Assembly (NCBI GenBank): GCA_001299455.1
Contig: CYUK01000003.1
Location: 186,001-250,000 of the forward strand
From: Clostridiales bacterium SIT11
Lineage (GTDB): Bacteria; Bacillota; Clostridia; Tissierellales; Peptoniphilaceae
Length of the DNA: 64,000 nt
Reading direction: 5' to 3'
A program made the translations under genes and the position numbers. The notes beneath the pieces are model-generated. The model ran no database searches. It was not told where the DNA came from and saw only the letters and a program-made list of their open reading frames with translations. Below are positions 5,803-45,788 of this stretch, in pieces (the stretch's first letter is position 1; the number at the start of each line of letters is the position of its first letter).

Positions 5803-5856
5803 AAAAAACCTCCTCTGCTTACCTAAATACTTAGGTCGCTTCCCTCCGAAGTTAAC

Positions 5857-5985
5857 TCAAGATAGGTCTCCTGACTCACACCTTTAAGGTCAAAACCTTC
5901 CCAATTTCTTAGTGGTTTCCTTTGACCGACATGCTTACAGTAGCGGGGGCTGTACCGGACTTTAACCGGTTTCCCTGAATCTTGA
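5857..5985 (-). promoter_or_regulatory. Cobalamin (adenosylcobalamin) riboswitch
   Basis: Read on the minus strand, the segment contains the cobalamin-riboswitch core GGGAAACCGG...TCCGGTAC...GCCCCCGCTACTGTAAGC and ends with the B12-box-like AGTCAGGAGACCT. A perfect 7-bp P1 stem closes it: TCAAGAT (5979-5985) with ATCTTGA (5857-5863). It lies 55-60 nt upstream of the cbiK start. A 6-bp hairpin (5821-5836) sits just before the cbiK ribosome-binding site, and no T-run follows it, so translational control is the likelier mode (inference). The aptamer starts right after the cbiB stop codon. Confidence 0.95.
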
Positions 5986-6915
5986 CTAAAATAGAGATAT
6001 AAGCAAAATAAAGGCCACCATGGCAATTTCTGTGCCATAGAGGACATAAATTGTTTTACTTATATCTTCAGGAGAGATTTCTTTCCTTCCTTCACCTATG
6101 GTCGGCTTTTCAATAAATTTTCCAAAATACCAATGCCCTCCCCCTAGGCGGATATCCAAGATTCCAGCAATGGCTGCTTCAGGATAGCCTGCATTAGGAC
6201 TTAAATGGGCATGCTTGTATTTCTGAATGGTCTTTATTGTCTCTTTAAAACGACCAAAAAAAATAGAAACTAAGGCCATGAAGCCTGCTGTAATTCGTGC
6301 AGGAATATAATTTAAAACATCGTCCACTTCTGCTGCCACCTTGCCTAGGTATTCATACCGGTCTGTATGATAGCCAATCATGGAGTCCATGGTGTTGACC
6401 ATCTTATACAGGTAGCCTCCTATAGGACCTAAAAGGCAGATGAAAAAAAGAGGGGCAATGACCCCGTCAGAGGTGTTTTCAGCCACAGTTTCAATGGTGG
6501 CTTGGTAAATTTCCTTGAGGCTTAATTTCCGGGTATCCCGGCCTACAATATAAGACAACCTCTTCCGACCCTGGTCCAGACTTCTGGCACAGGCCTCTTT
6601 CACCTTCATGGCTTCATAGTGGAGCATTCGGGCAGATATGGCCTGGTAAATGCTATAGACTAGAAACACCTTGTAGACGAGGCCACTTGTTCGGGATAAA
6701 ATCAACCAAGGAATGGCCACAGCTAGGAAAATATTTATAAAAACCAAGATTCCTCCATATATATAGAGGTCTCTGGAATTTTTCCCATACTTAAAGGCTA
6801 CTTTTTCCTCAAAGCTAATGACTTTCCCCATGAGAATTACAGGATGAGGCATAAAATAAGGATCTCCAAAAATCCAATCCAATAGTATTCCCAGTAAAAG
6901 ATCATTGATTGCCAC
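5986..6915 (-). CDS. cbiB: Adenosylcobinamide-phosphate synthase, CbiB
   Basis: Integral membrane enzyme that attaches aminopropanol phosphate to adenosylcobyrate, giving adenosylcobinamide phosphate. It has 309 residues. The N-terminus LLLGILLDWIFGDPYFMPHP is the family signature, followed by VAENTSDGVIAPLF, YKMVNTMDSMIGY and the C-terminal GGGHWYFGKF region. Several hydrophobic helices are visible (about residues 55-75, 80-95, 155-175, 205-220, 290-308). The GTG at 6913-6915 has GGAGG 9 nt upstream. It uses the product of the CobD-like enzyme encoded downstream. It lies upstream of the riboswitch, so B12 would regulate the later genes rather than cbiB directly unless repression acts on the whole transcript. 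Confidence 0.95.
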   Translation of the reverse strand: MAINDLLLGILLDWIFGDPYFMPHPVILMGKVISFEEKVAFKYGKNSRDLYIYGGILVFINIFLAVAIPWLILSRTSGLVYKVFLVYSIYQAISARMLHYEAMKVKEACARSLDQGRKRLSYIVGRDTRKLSLKEIYQATIETVAENTSDGVIAPLFFICLLGPIGGYLYKMVNTMDSMIGYHTDRYEYLGKVAAEVDDVLNYIPARITAGFMALVSIFFGRFKETIKTIQKYKHAHLSPNAGYPEAAIAGILDIRLGGGHWYFGKFIEKPTIGEGRKEISPEDISKTIYVLYGTEIAMVAFILLISLF

Positions 6916-21737: not shown

Positions 21738-21992
21738 ATAGATAAAAAAAAAGCCCTCATCCCATAGGACGAAGAACTCGCGGTACCACCTAAATTATAG
21801 TATATCCATACTATCACTCATCAGGATCTAACAATCCATAGCCTAAGATAACGGTGGCATCCGAAACTGTCTACATTTTCAACAATTCTACTCCGGAGTG
21901 AATATTCCATACTGTCCGTCTTCCTGGCTCTCACCTTTCCCAGGTCTCTTTAAAGAGTTCAAGTATCTTTCTCTCCATCGAAGTATTTAATA
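21738..21992 (-). promoter_or_regulatory. T-box riboswitch, apparent tryptophan specifier (UGG)
   Basis: Minus-strand leader with the conserved T-box AGGTGGTACCGCG (21779-21791). It is followed by a terminator hairpin and a run of nine T (about 21745-21770). Stem I elements (GAACTC, a GTGAGAGCC-like AGxx loop) lie upstream, and the candidate specifier TGG followed by A is at 21907-21909. Uncharged tRNA-Trp would be expected to stabilise the antiterminator and turn on trpXYZ. Which triplet is the specifier depends on the exact fold, which I did it by eye. Confidence 0.92.
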
Positions 21993-43898: not shown

Positions 43899-45280
43899 AC
43901 TACCGCATTGAACACGACAGCCTAGGCGAATTAAAGGTTCCCTCTGACAAGTATTGGGGAGCTCAAACAGAGCGGAGCCATGAAAACTTCCAAATTGGCA
44001 AGGAAAAAATGCCCCCGGAAATTATCCGAGCCTTTGCCATTTTAAAATACGCGGCTGCCGAAAGTAACCAAAAGTTGAACCTTCTAGACGAGAAAAAATC
44101 AGAAGCCATCAAGACCGTTTGCGATGAAATCCTTGCCGGAAAATTGGAGGACCACTTCCCCCTTGTAGTCTGGCAAACAGGGTCCGGAACCCAAAGCAAC
44201 ATGAACTTAAACGAAGTCATTGCCAACAGGGGAAACGAACTTTTAGCTGACCACCTCCTCCATCCCAATGACGACGTCAATAAGTCTCAATCCAGCAACG
44301 ACACCTTCCCTACAGCCCTCCATGTCAGTGCCCTCCTTGCTGTAGAAGAACACTTACTTCCTGCCCTAGATGACCTAGAAACCACTTTTAAGGCCCTGGC
44401 CAGGGAAAATAAAGACGTCATTAAAACCGGCCGAACCCACCTCCAAGACGCCGTCCCCCTTTCCTTGGGTCAAGAAATTAGCGGCTGGGCCCGGATGCTA
44501 GAAGTTTCCAAAAAAATGATTACCACCGCCCTGAATAGTATTCGTGAAATTGCCCTAGGAGGGACCGCCGTAGGCACCGGCCTCAATGCCCACAAGGACT
44601 TTCCCGACCTAGTAGCCAAGGAAATTTCCAAGAAAACCGACCACCACTTTGTTACCGCAAAAAATAAATTTCATGCCTTGACCAGCAAGAACCAGATTGC
44701 CTTCCTCCACGGTGCCATCAAGGCCCTGGCCTGCGACCTCCTAAAAATTGCCAATGACGTCCGCCTCTTGGCCTCCGGTCCTCGCTGTGGCATTGGAGAA
44801 ATTACTATTCCTGCCAATGAACCTGGATCCTCTATTATGCCCGGCAAGGTCAACCCCACCCAGGCGGAGGCCCTCACCATGGTCTGTGTCCAGGTCATGG
44901 GAAATGACACCGCCATTACAGTAGCTGCCTCCCAGGGAAATTACGAGCTCAATGTCTATATGCCCCTTATTGCCTATAACTTTTTACAAAGTGTCAATCT
45001 TTTAGCCGATGCCATGAAGAGCTTTAACCTCCATTGTGCCCAAGGAATTAAGCCCAATTTAGAAAAAATTGAAGAAAATCTTGAAAAATCCCTTATGCTG
45101 GTCACCGCCCTAAACCCCTATATCGGCTATGAAAATGCAGCCAAAATCGCCAAAAAAGCCCATGAAGAAAATACTAGCTTAAAAGAAGCCTGCCTCGACC
45201 TAAACCTCCTTACAGAAGAAGAATTTGATCAAATTGTAGACCCGAAAAAAATGGTCCATCTTGATGAGGATAGTTTTTAA
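43895..45280 (+). CDS. fumC: Class II fumarate hydratase
   Basis: Iron-independent interconversion of fumarate and malate. 461 residues: [77 protein letters not shown], and the signature [20 protein letters not shown] overlap with malic enzyme. Oxygen- and iron-independent class II suits an organism with iron-limitation control next door. Last gene of the unit; the repeat region lies downstream. Confidence 0.97.
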
Positions 45281-45359: not shown

Positions 45360-45730
45360 ATAGCGGGCTAGACTGCCGTCGATTTCTACCAATCAACTTC
45401 CGGGCGACACCAGGTCGCCCCTACTTAGCATGAGACCTGCCACAAAATCATAGATTTTGAGCTAGGGCTTCAACGTCGCTCCTACGGTGCCTACTGCGGA
45501 AAATATCCAGAGTAGGGGCTGCCTTGTGCAGCCCGAAGGACCAACAGTAAAAATATAAGAACAGGCAACAAACCCAATATATACAAATTATGCCAATATA
45601 CAAGCGGACTAGACGAGCTAGCCCCTACAAATATCCCCGCTACAAAATCAAAGATTTTAGGCTAGGGGTTCAACCTAGCCTCTACAAATTCTTCCTATCA
45701 ACTTCCGGGCGACACTAGGTCGCCCTACAA
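45360..45730. repeat. Modular hairpin repeat array
   Basis: Contains near-identical copies (45392-45424 and 45697-45728) of ATCAACTTCCGGGCGAC plus its partner arm, and several 19-21 nt hairpins with 7-nt arms. These are GGGCGAC-5-GTCGCCC (45402-45420), GGGCTGC-5-GCAGCCC (45516-45534), GGACTAG-5-CTAGCCC (45606-45624, one mismatch) and GGCTAGG-7-CCTAGCC (45660-45680). Arms change sequence but keep pairing, and many end in CTAC. A related pair of segments with ACAAAATCnnAGATTTT also repeats (45431-45457, 45641-45667). No transposase or CRISPR-like spacing. Confidence 0.8.
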
Positions 45731-45751: not shown

Positions 45752-45788
45752 AAAAAGAGAACCTGGTCCTAAGACTGGGTTCTCTTTC
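45752..45788 (-). terminator. Terminator of the nucleoside permease operon
   Basis: AAAGAGAACC / GGTTCTCTTT 10-bp stem with flanking T-run on the minus strand. Confidence 0.85.

Follow-up and report, generated by a model that had tools for sequence, protein, structure and literature searches.

GTAG-type REP hairpins, a RAYT gene and a second structured element in a Urinicoccus genome

An intergenic cluster of tagged hairpins

The window analysed here is a stretch of 64 kb from the genome of Clostridiales bacterium SIT11, which belongs to the same genus as Urinicoccus massiliensis and is placed in the Peptoniphilaceae (Tissierellales, Bacillota). Two convergent ORFs, ending at positions 45280 and 45810 of the window and read by eye only, with no family search, as a class II fumarase and an ABC permease, enclose an intergenic cluster of four hairpins at 45363-45728. 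Each carries a GTAG tag, shortened in one case, at the foot of a 7-bp stem that is closed by a 5-nt loop. Three of them lie on the minus strand and one on the plus strand, and their stems consist of GGGC followed by GAC, TGC, TAG and GAC. The first hairpin (45402-45424, minus) pairs GGGCGAC with GTCGCCC around the loop CTGGT and is located within copy 1 of a second element described below. The next one (45512-45534, plus) has the stem GGGCTGC/GCAGCCC and the loop CTTGT, and the third (45606-45628, minus), which falls in the region matched as copy 2 of that element, has the stem GGGCTAG/CTAGTCC with one G.U pair and the loop CTCGT. When read on the plus strand, this third hairpin is GGACTAG/CTAGCCC with an A.C mismatch, and it is the minus strand, the GTAG side, that has G.U instead. 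The fourth (45707-45728, minus; repeat family D1) combines GGGCGAC/GTCGCCC and the loop CTAGT with the tag GTA, one G fewer.

A preliminary description of this DNA had reported hairpins of a 7-5-7 layout whose stems change in pairs, and these were indeed found. On the plus strand of the 371-nt stretch there are three fully paired 7-5-7 hairpins with at least four G/C in an arm, two of them tagged; dinucleotide shuffles averaged 0.087 such hairpins, and none of 1000 reached three. By the same definition, these two are the only tagged hairpins, fully paired and on the plus strand, across the 64-kb window. Of the recurring flanks noted in that description, CTAC is the tag GTAG as it appears on the opposite strand, and ATCAACTTCCG, by reading, is part of the second element around the hairpins. 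No ORF of at least 80 aa overlaps the hairpins of the window. A terminator-like inverted repeat, separate from the hairpins, is located at 45754-45787. An Rfam search of the window at gathering scores gave nothing at the place of the hairpins; elsewhere in the window, a T-box leader (21762-21990, minus, 117.8 bits) and a cobalamin riboswitch (5844-5999, minus, 82.7 bits) scored above their gathering scores.

Dispersal and variation of the hairpins

In a blastn search of its own genome, the segment 45300-45800 matched 37 places, the query's own place counted. A first hairpin pattern gave 48 matches in this genome and one with the reversed control. With a pattern of tighter gap, GTAGGGGCN{10,16}GCCC, which makes no demand on pairing of the inner stem, the own genome gave 46 matches, the sister species 55 and a further genome of the family (G027) 27, with no match of the reversed pattern in any of the three; in some other genomes (G007, G010) reversed-pattern controls reach 9. 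Any match at all was present in 17 of the 61 genomes, the 14 besides these three having 1 to 5. The hairpins of G027 (e.g., at L150-L153) have other stems (GATTA, GGTTA, GGATA). The locus is not alone in its genome, and this genome-wide dispersal bears out the proposal in the preliminary description that the hairpins form a family of short mobile elements.

The own-genome matches include 38 of exactly 23 nt, every one of which pairs at the three inner positions (37 by Watson-Crick pairs, one with G.U). The remaining eight of the 46 are longer or shorter and, by reading, include three genic-looking or unrelated sequences as well as copies of the second element. We then compared 45 hairpins from the own genome and 43 from the sister species, drawn from the genome stretches examined. 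The GTAG tag and the GGGC/GCCC foot are constant across both species and the inner three pairs are variable, with the versions GAC, TGC, CTG, TAG and TTG in the own genome and GAT, GAC, CGG, GGC, TGG, CTG and TTG in the sister species. A few copies carry G.U pairs. The three inner pairs, together with loop position 1 paired with position 4, covary by changes on both sides, in line with the earlier claim that structure is kept under changing sequence. The covariation score was 0.576 versus 0.154 for shuffled and at most 0.079 for slid alignments, the input being 30 hand-picked variant rows (28 distinct) that had each been required beforehand to form at least six of the seven pairs; the number of pairs changed on both sides and the number of pair types did not exceed those of shuffles (444 and 458 of 500). 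RNAalifold predicted the same 7-bp stem, to which an eighth pair with an unpaired T may be added.

The hairpins are GTAG-type REPs, a known kind of element, and alternative stems that preserve the pairing have been described for REPs before. This assignment is made because the tagged hairpins are dispersed and because, in two species, a RAYT gene is embedded among them (see below). As in the REPtrons described in PMC3733652, in which GTAG REPs are associated with a RAYT, we found a GTAG tag, a short perfect stem, a short loop, dispersed copies, pairs in several orientations and the gene of an HUH tyrosine transposase among the REPs; sub-families with alternative complementary stem residues are already described there (sections 5 and 16). 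Unlike the REPs of that account, those described here have a loop of the form YTNRT with the covarying pair 1-4. None of the terms Firmicutes, Clostridi, Peptoniphilus and Finegoldia turned up in its main text. As to whether the hairpins match a known named element, which the preliminary description had raised, they do so in kind, by belonging to the published GTAG-REP superfamily, but not by an Rfam match at their place. The copy number, about 45, is below the hundreds reported for pseudomonads (PMC3686654).

Neighbouring REPs at most 150 nt apart were arranged tail-to-tail in 10 cases, head-to-head in 10 and head-to-tail in 2 in the own genome, and in 3, 5 and 12 cases, respectively, in the sister species (stretches examined in both). 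Section 5 of PMC3733652 reports all three orientations, with few head-to-tail pairs in most genomes, a pattern that the sister species does not follow.

The RAYT gene and its association with the REPs

The genome has three matches to PF01797, one of which is a RAYT. This ORF of 160 aa (C3:741099-741578, minus strand) is located inside a dense cluster of the REP hairpins, with REPs flanking it at 741037-741059 and 741759-741781 and more around. It scored 43.8 bits with PF01797 (cut-off 23) and narrowly passed the NCBI equivalog NF047646 (REP_Tyr_transpos) with 81.7 bits at a cut-off of 80; the RAYT of the sister species, 61% identical and also situated among its own REPs, scored 72.6 with the latter, below the cut-off. 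Residues H67, H69, Q119 and Y139 are invariant in 25 aligned RAYT relatives, and W118 and R128 are present in at least 90% of them. The catalytic Tyr presumably corresponds to Y115 of the E. coli protein, as judged by counting. From its sequence, the protein has the features of a RAYT, namely the HUH motif, the catalytic Tyr and the W, Q and R of the GTAG-contact region, the last three being matched to E. coli W94, Q95 and R104 by PMC6006769 plus a sequence alignment. An AlphaFold2 model had a mean pLDDT of 92.2, and the best PDB match to the predicted fold was 4er8, a RAYT with its REP hairpin (E 8.7e-8), with IS200-type structures close behind (E 3.6e-7 and up); by sequence, 4er8 was a weak match (E 0.0074).

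We also looked at hairpins near relatives of the gene, using the 45 of 58 RAYT-relative loci found that remained when partial ones were excluded, the sister species being among the 45. Hairpins tagged with GTAG or GTGG occurred at 1.64 per kb within 400 nt of the gene versus 0.30 per kb further off (57 in 34.7 kb and 81 in 269.8 kb), and those with control tags, over the same lengths of sequence, at 0.17 per kb (6 hairpins) versus 0.23 per kb (62 hairpins). Tagged hairpins were nearby at 24 of the 45 loci, a palindromic one being able to count on both strands. Two genomes with RAYT relatives of 35% identity (G017, G058) nevertheless have 0 and 1 pattern matches. In G027, despite its 27 hairpins, neither a RAYT match nor a PF01797 match was found in a fragmented assembly of about 170 contigs. 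Hairpins of the GTAGGGGC type, with different stems, adjoin several RAYT relatives (L064-L100) whose records bear the labels Omnitrophota, Nitrospirae, Ignavibacteriaceae, Dethiobacter and others.

An IS200/IS605 transposase gene free of stops (C3:539862-540218), which scores 149.8 bits with NF033573 and passes the IS200 model but fails the RAYT model, is also present in the genome, as is another copy interrupted by three stops, and in the sister species an IS200-type transposase gene has REPs on both sides (L142, G001:C13:576500-579000). These genes would provide a source if the hairpins were ends or debris of the IS200/IS605 element of the genome and not linked to the RAYT. We consider this highly improbable: the copy without stops adjoins hairpins of other sequence, with no GTAGGGGC there and no REP match near it, and its ends were rejected as the source of the REPs.

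A role as RNA signals under transcript selection, as terminators or stabilisers of mRNA 3' ends, with the RAYT link being historical, would suit the position between convergent genes, which is reported to be common for REPs (PMC3733652), and the G.U pairs in a few copies. Against it, the constant GTAG tag is outside the stem, no T-run follows any of the four hairpins of the window by eye, the terminator-like inverted repeat near them is a separate one, and many copies cluster round the RAYT gene. We regard this explanation as unlikely, though somewhat less so than the IS200/IS605 one; an RNA use of the REPs could still occur as a side effect.

A route by way of the RAYT is supported for the REPs by association, fold and literature. 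As an HUH single-strand transposase, the RAYT would recognise the GTAG tag together with the hairpin in single-stranded DNA and would move or copy the REPs, often as pairs. The fold may matter more to it than the sequence of the inner stem, so that successive stem versions could spread in turn. The situation resembles the orthoswitch of REP classes at one RAYT (PMC3686654) in that several stem classes coexist with one detected RAYT, but differs from it in being deduced from two species and not from a strain series. The preliminary description had suggested a distant transposase such as a RAYT, and this part stood insofar as the gene exists, within a REP cluster; movement of the REPs themselves was not seen, and the sister species offered no orthologous empty site because the neighbours match on different contigs there.

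The second element

Around two of the hairpins lies a second, larger element, which the preliminary description had missed. It has two arms, is about 80-130 nt long and has no ORF of its own. Copy 1 (45363-45485, minus, 72.5 bits) has its core at 45375-45472 and REP-like arms, GTAGGAGCGACGT (45473-45485) and AGTCTAGCCC (45365-45374), which pair in part only; the REP at 45402-45424 occupies the place where other copies have part of arm 2. Copy 2 (45589-45685, minus, 33 bits) begins with GTAGAGGCTAG and is degraded. The fold of the window copy was no better than that of many shuffles (z -1.62, 14 of 200), and full copies elsewhere fold strongly (z -4.37, -4.06 and -4.46). When 23 copies from five genomes were aligned with MAFFT, changes on both sides were seen at 10 of the 22 predicted pairs, with a covariation score of 0.253 versus 0.100 for shuffled and at most 0.047 for slid alignments. 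In a model-fitted set of 66 matches (61 distinct), the alignment of which leans towards structure, 21 of 22 pairs did so.

The covariance model R1 matched in 74 of 130 genomes of the family and 27 of 39 genera at E 0.01, and in the class in 19 of 291 genomes at E 1e-4, five of these 19 belonging to the family; few candidates were scored per genome, which makes these counts lower bounds, and the E-values are rough, so that weak single matches may be due to chance. No Rfam 15 match overlapped the element, either in the window at gathering scores or at 12 loci with E up to 1. The sub-threshold matches obtained at these loci all lay outside the element; one of them, to MicX at L016:15537-15724 (23.8 bits versus a gathering score of 75), overlaps a REP and was dismissed as a likely chance match. 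Long terminal inverted repeats were not seen by eye, and blastn gave no match in plasmids with two queries or in phages with one. Literature searches returned no title or abstract start describing the element, which is not proof of absence; it is apparently undescribed. A further long hairpin repeat, GACCTAACCCGACGAGAGC...GTAGGTAGGTC, is present at L016, L020 and L027 and resembles arm 1 of the element by eye.

In one genome (G096), a methyltransferase gene, taken from its conserved end to be of the rumA type, has that end interrupted by the element. When the 122 nt were removed, the joined flanks aligned over 1397 bp at 92% to G070 and over 1399 bp at 90% to G083, and the alignments ran through the junction without a gap. 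To judge by this empty-site match in the sequences, the second element has moved. A 3-nt TGA duplication or none fits the site equally well, and among the 30 rumA loci examined (best matches to the G096 gene, a few cut near the gene end) the element is present in one. A second empty-site comparison (L175) gave the right half only (matches of 68-81 bp), since its left gene is a different methyltransferase copy. Two ORFs after the element at L176 had suggested integron-like gene cassettes, a notion that was dropped when the same downstream sequence was found in the empty site L216.

In Urinicoccus the element is often inside REP loops: the joined flanks form a stem of at least seven pairs in 6 of the 10 copies analysed, and in two, both from the sister species, they restore an exact native REP whose 20-mer was found 10 times in the stretches examined. 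One copy in another genus (L165) also starts at a GTAG-tagged arm. Flank tests were run on 49 copies, 46 from the 66 model matches, duplicates and weaker ones excluded, and three others; from the test of joined flanks, L018, L015, L031 and one of the two copies in L183 were dropped because the motif rule found no start or end in them, and the ends are uncertain in some copies kept (L179, L168). Flank duplexes of these 49 were stronger than permuted ones (mean -11.83 versus -9.34, 0 of 5000 permutations), and in the remaining set of 45 copies the joined flanks gave hairpins to an extent matched by 0 of 10000 swaps. Without the 10 Urinicoccus copies this second effect was lost (35 copies, 1151 of 10000), and a general targeting of hairpin tips was rejected.

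The same data bear on the converse reading, that REPs are deletion products of the second element with its varying basal stem and not its insertion targets. REP arms often close the element in Urinicoccus, as this reading would have it, but joining the flanks does yield an exact native REP for those two of ten copies, hairpin-forming flanks outside Urinicoccus are no commoner than swapped ones, and REP-like hairpins with RAYT occur in other phyla. We judge it improbable, if the least so of the three rivals. As presumed insertion targets, the REPs recall those of IS1397, ISKpn1 and IS621 (PMC1525189), which are likewise mobile elements inside REPs; unlike these, the second element is of about 80-130 nt, lacks an ORF and keeps its fold by compensatory change. 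Its copies at L175 and L176 lie at the same kind of gene end as ICEs with serine integrases at rumA (PMC4701971), which differ from it in being large and in coding for their integrase. A serine recombinase of such rumA-using ICEs is one candidate for the mover, other candidates being an IS110-type or IS200-type enzyme or the RAYT itself.

Several further arrangements of the element were seen. In G030 (L188), by reading, copies follow one another head to tail without spacer, downstream of a pyrE-like gene by eye. Similar 3.1-kb stretches, 92-97% identical, are present in three genera (L179, L180, L181); at L179 a serine-recombinase-like ORF stands beside the copy, and a nucleotidyltransferase-like ORF resembles aminoglycoside adenylyltransferases, both by eye.

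Taken as a whole, the stretch is very probably a small mosaic of GTAG-type REPs, linked to the RAYT and joined in two places to an independent structured mobile element. More tentatively, and with the balance still tilted against it, the second element could represent an undescribed class of minimal mobile elements of about 80-130 nt, with neither gene nor terminal repeats, recognisable by a fold of two covarying arms whose junction motifs are nearly invariant, widespread in the Peptoniphilaceae and scattered through the class. It would be moved in trans by a recombinase reading the folded strand or its RNA, and would insert at the 3' end of rumA, a site that ICEs use as well, and in Urinicoccus into the loops of REPs.

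These results assign a REP and RAYT system to the Peptoniphilaceae, a family of human-associated anaerobes. Because one genome combines about five stem versions with a single RAYT, the extent to which the transposase reads the stem sequence can be tested directly. If confirmed, the second element would be a mobile element defined by structure, without an Rfam model and with many copies in some genomes.
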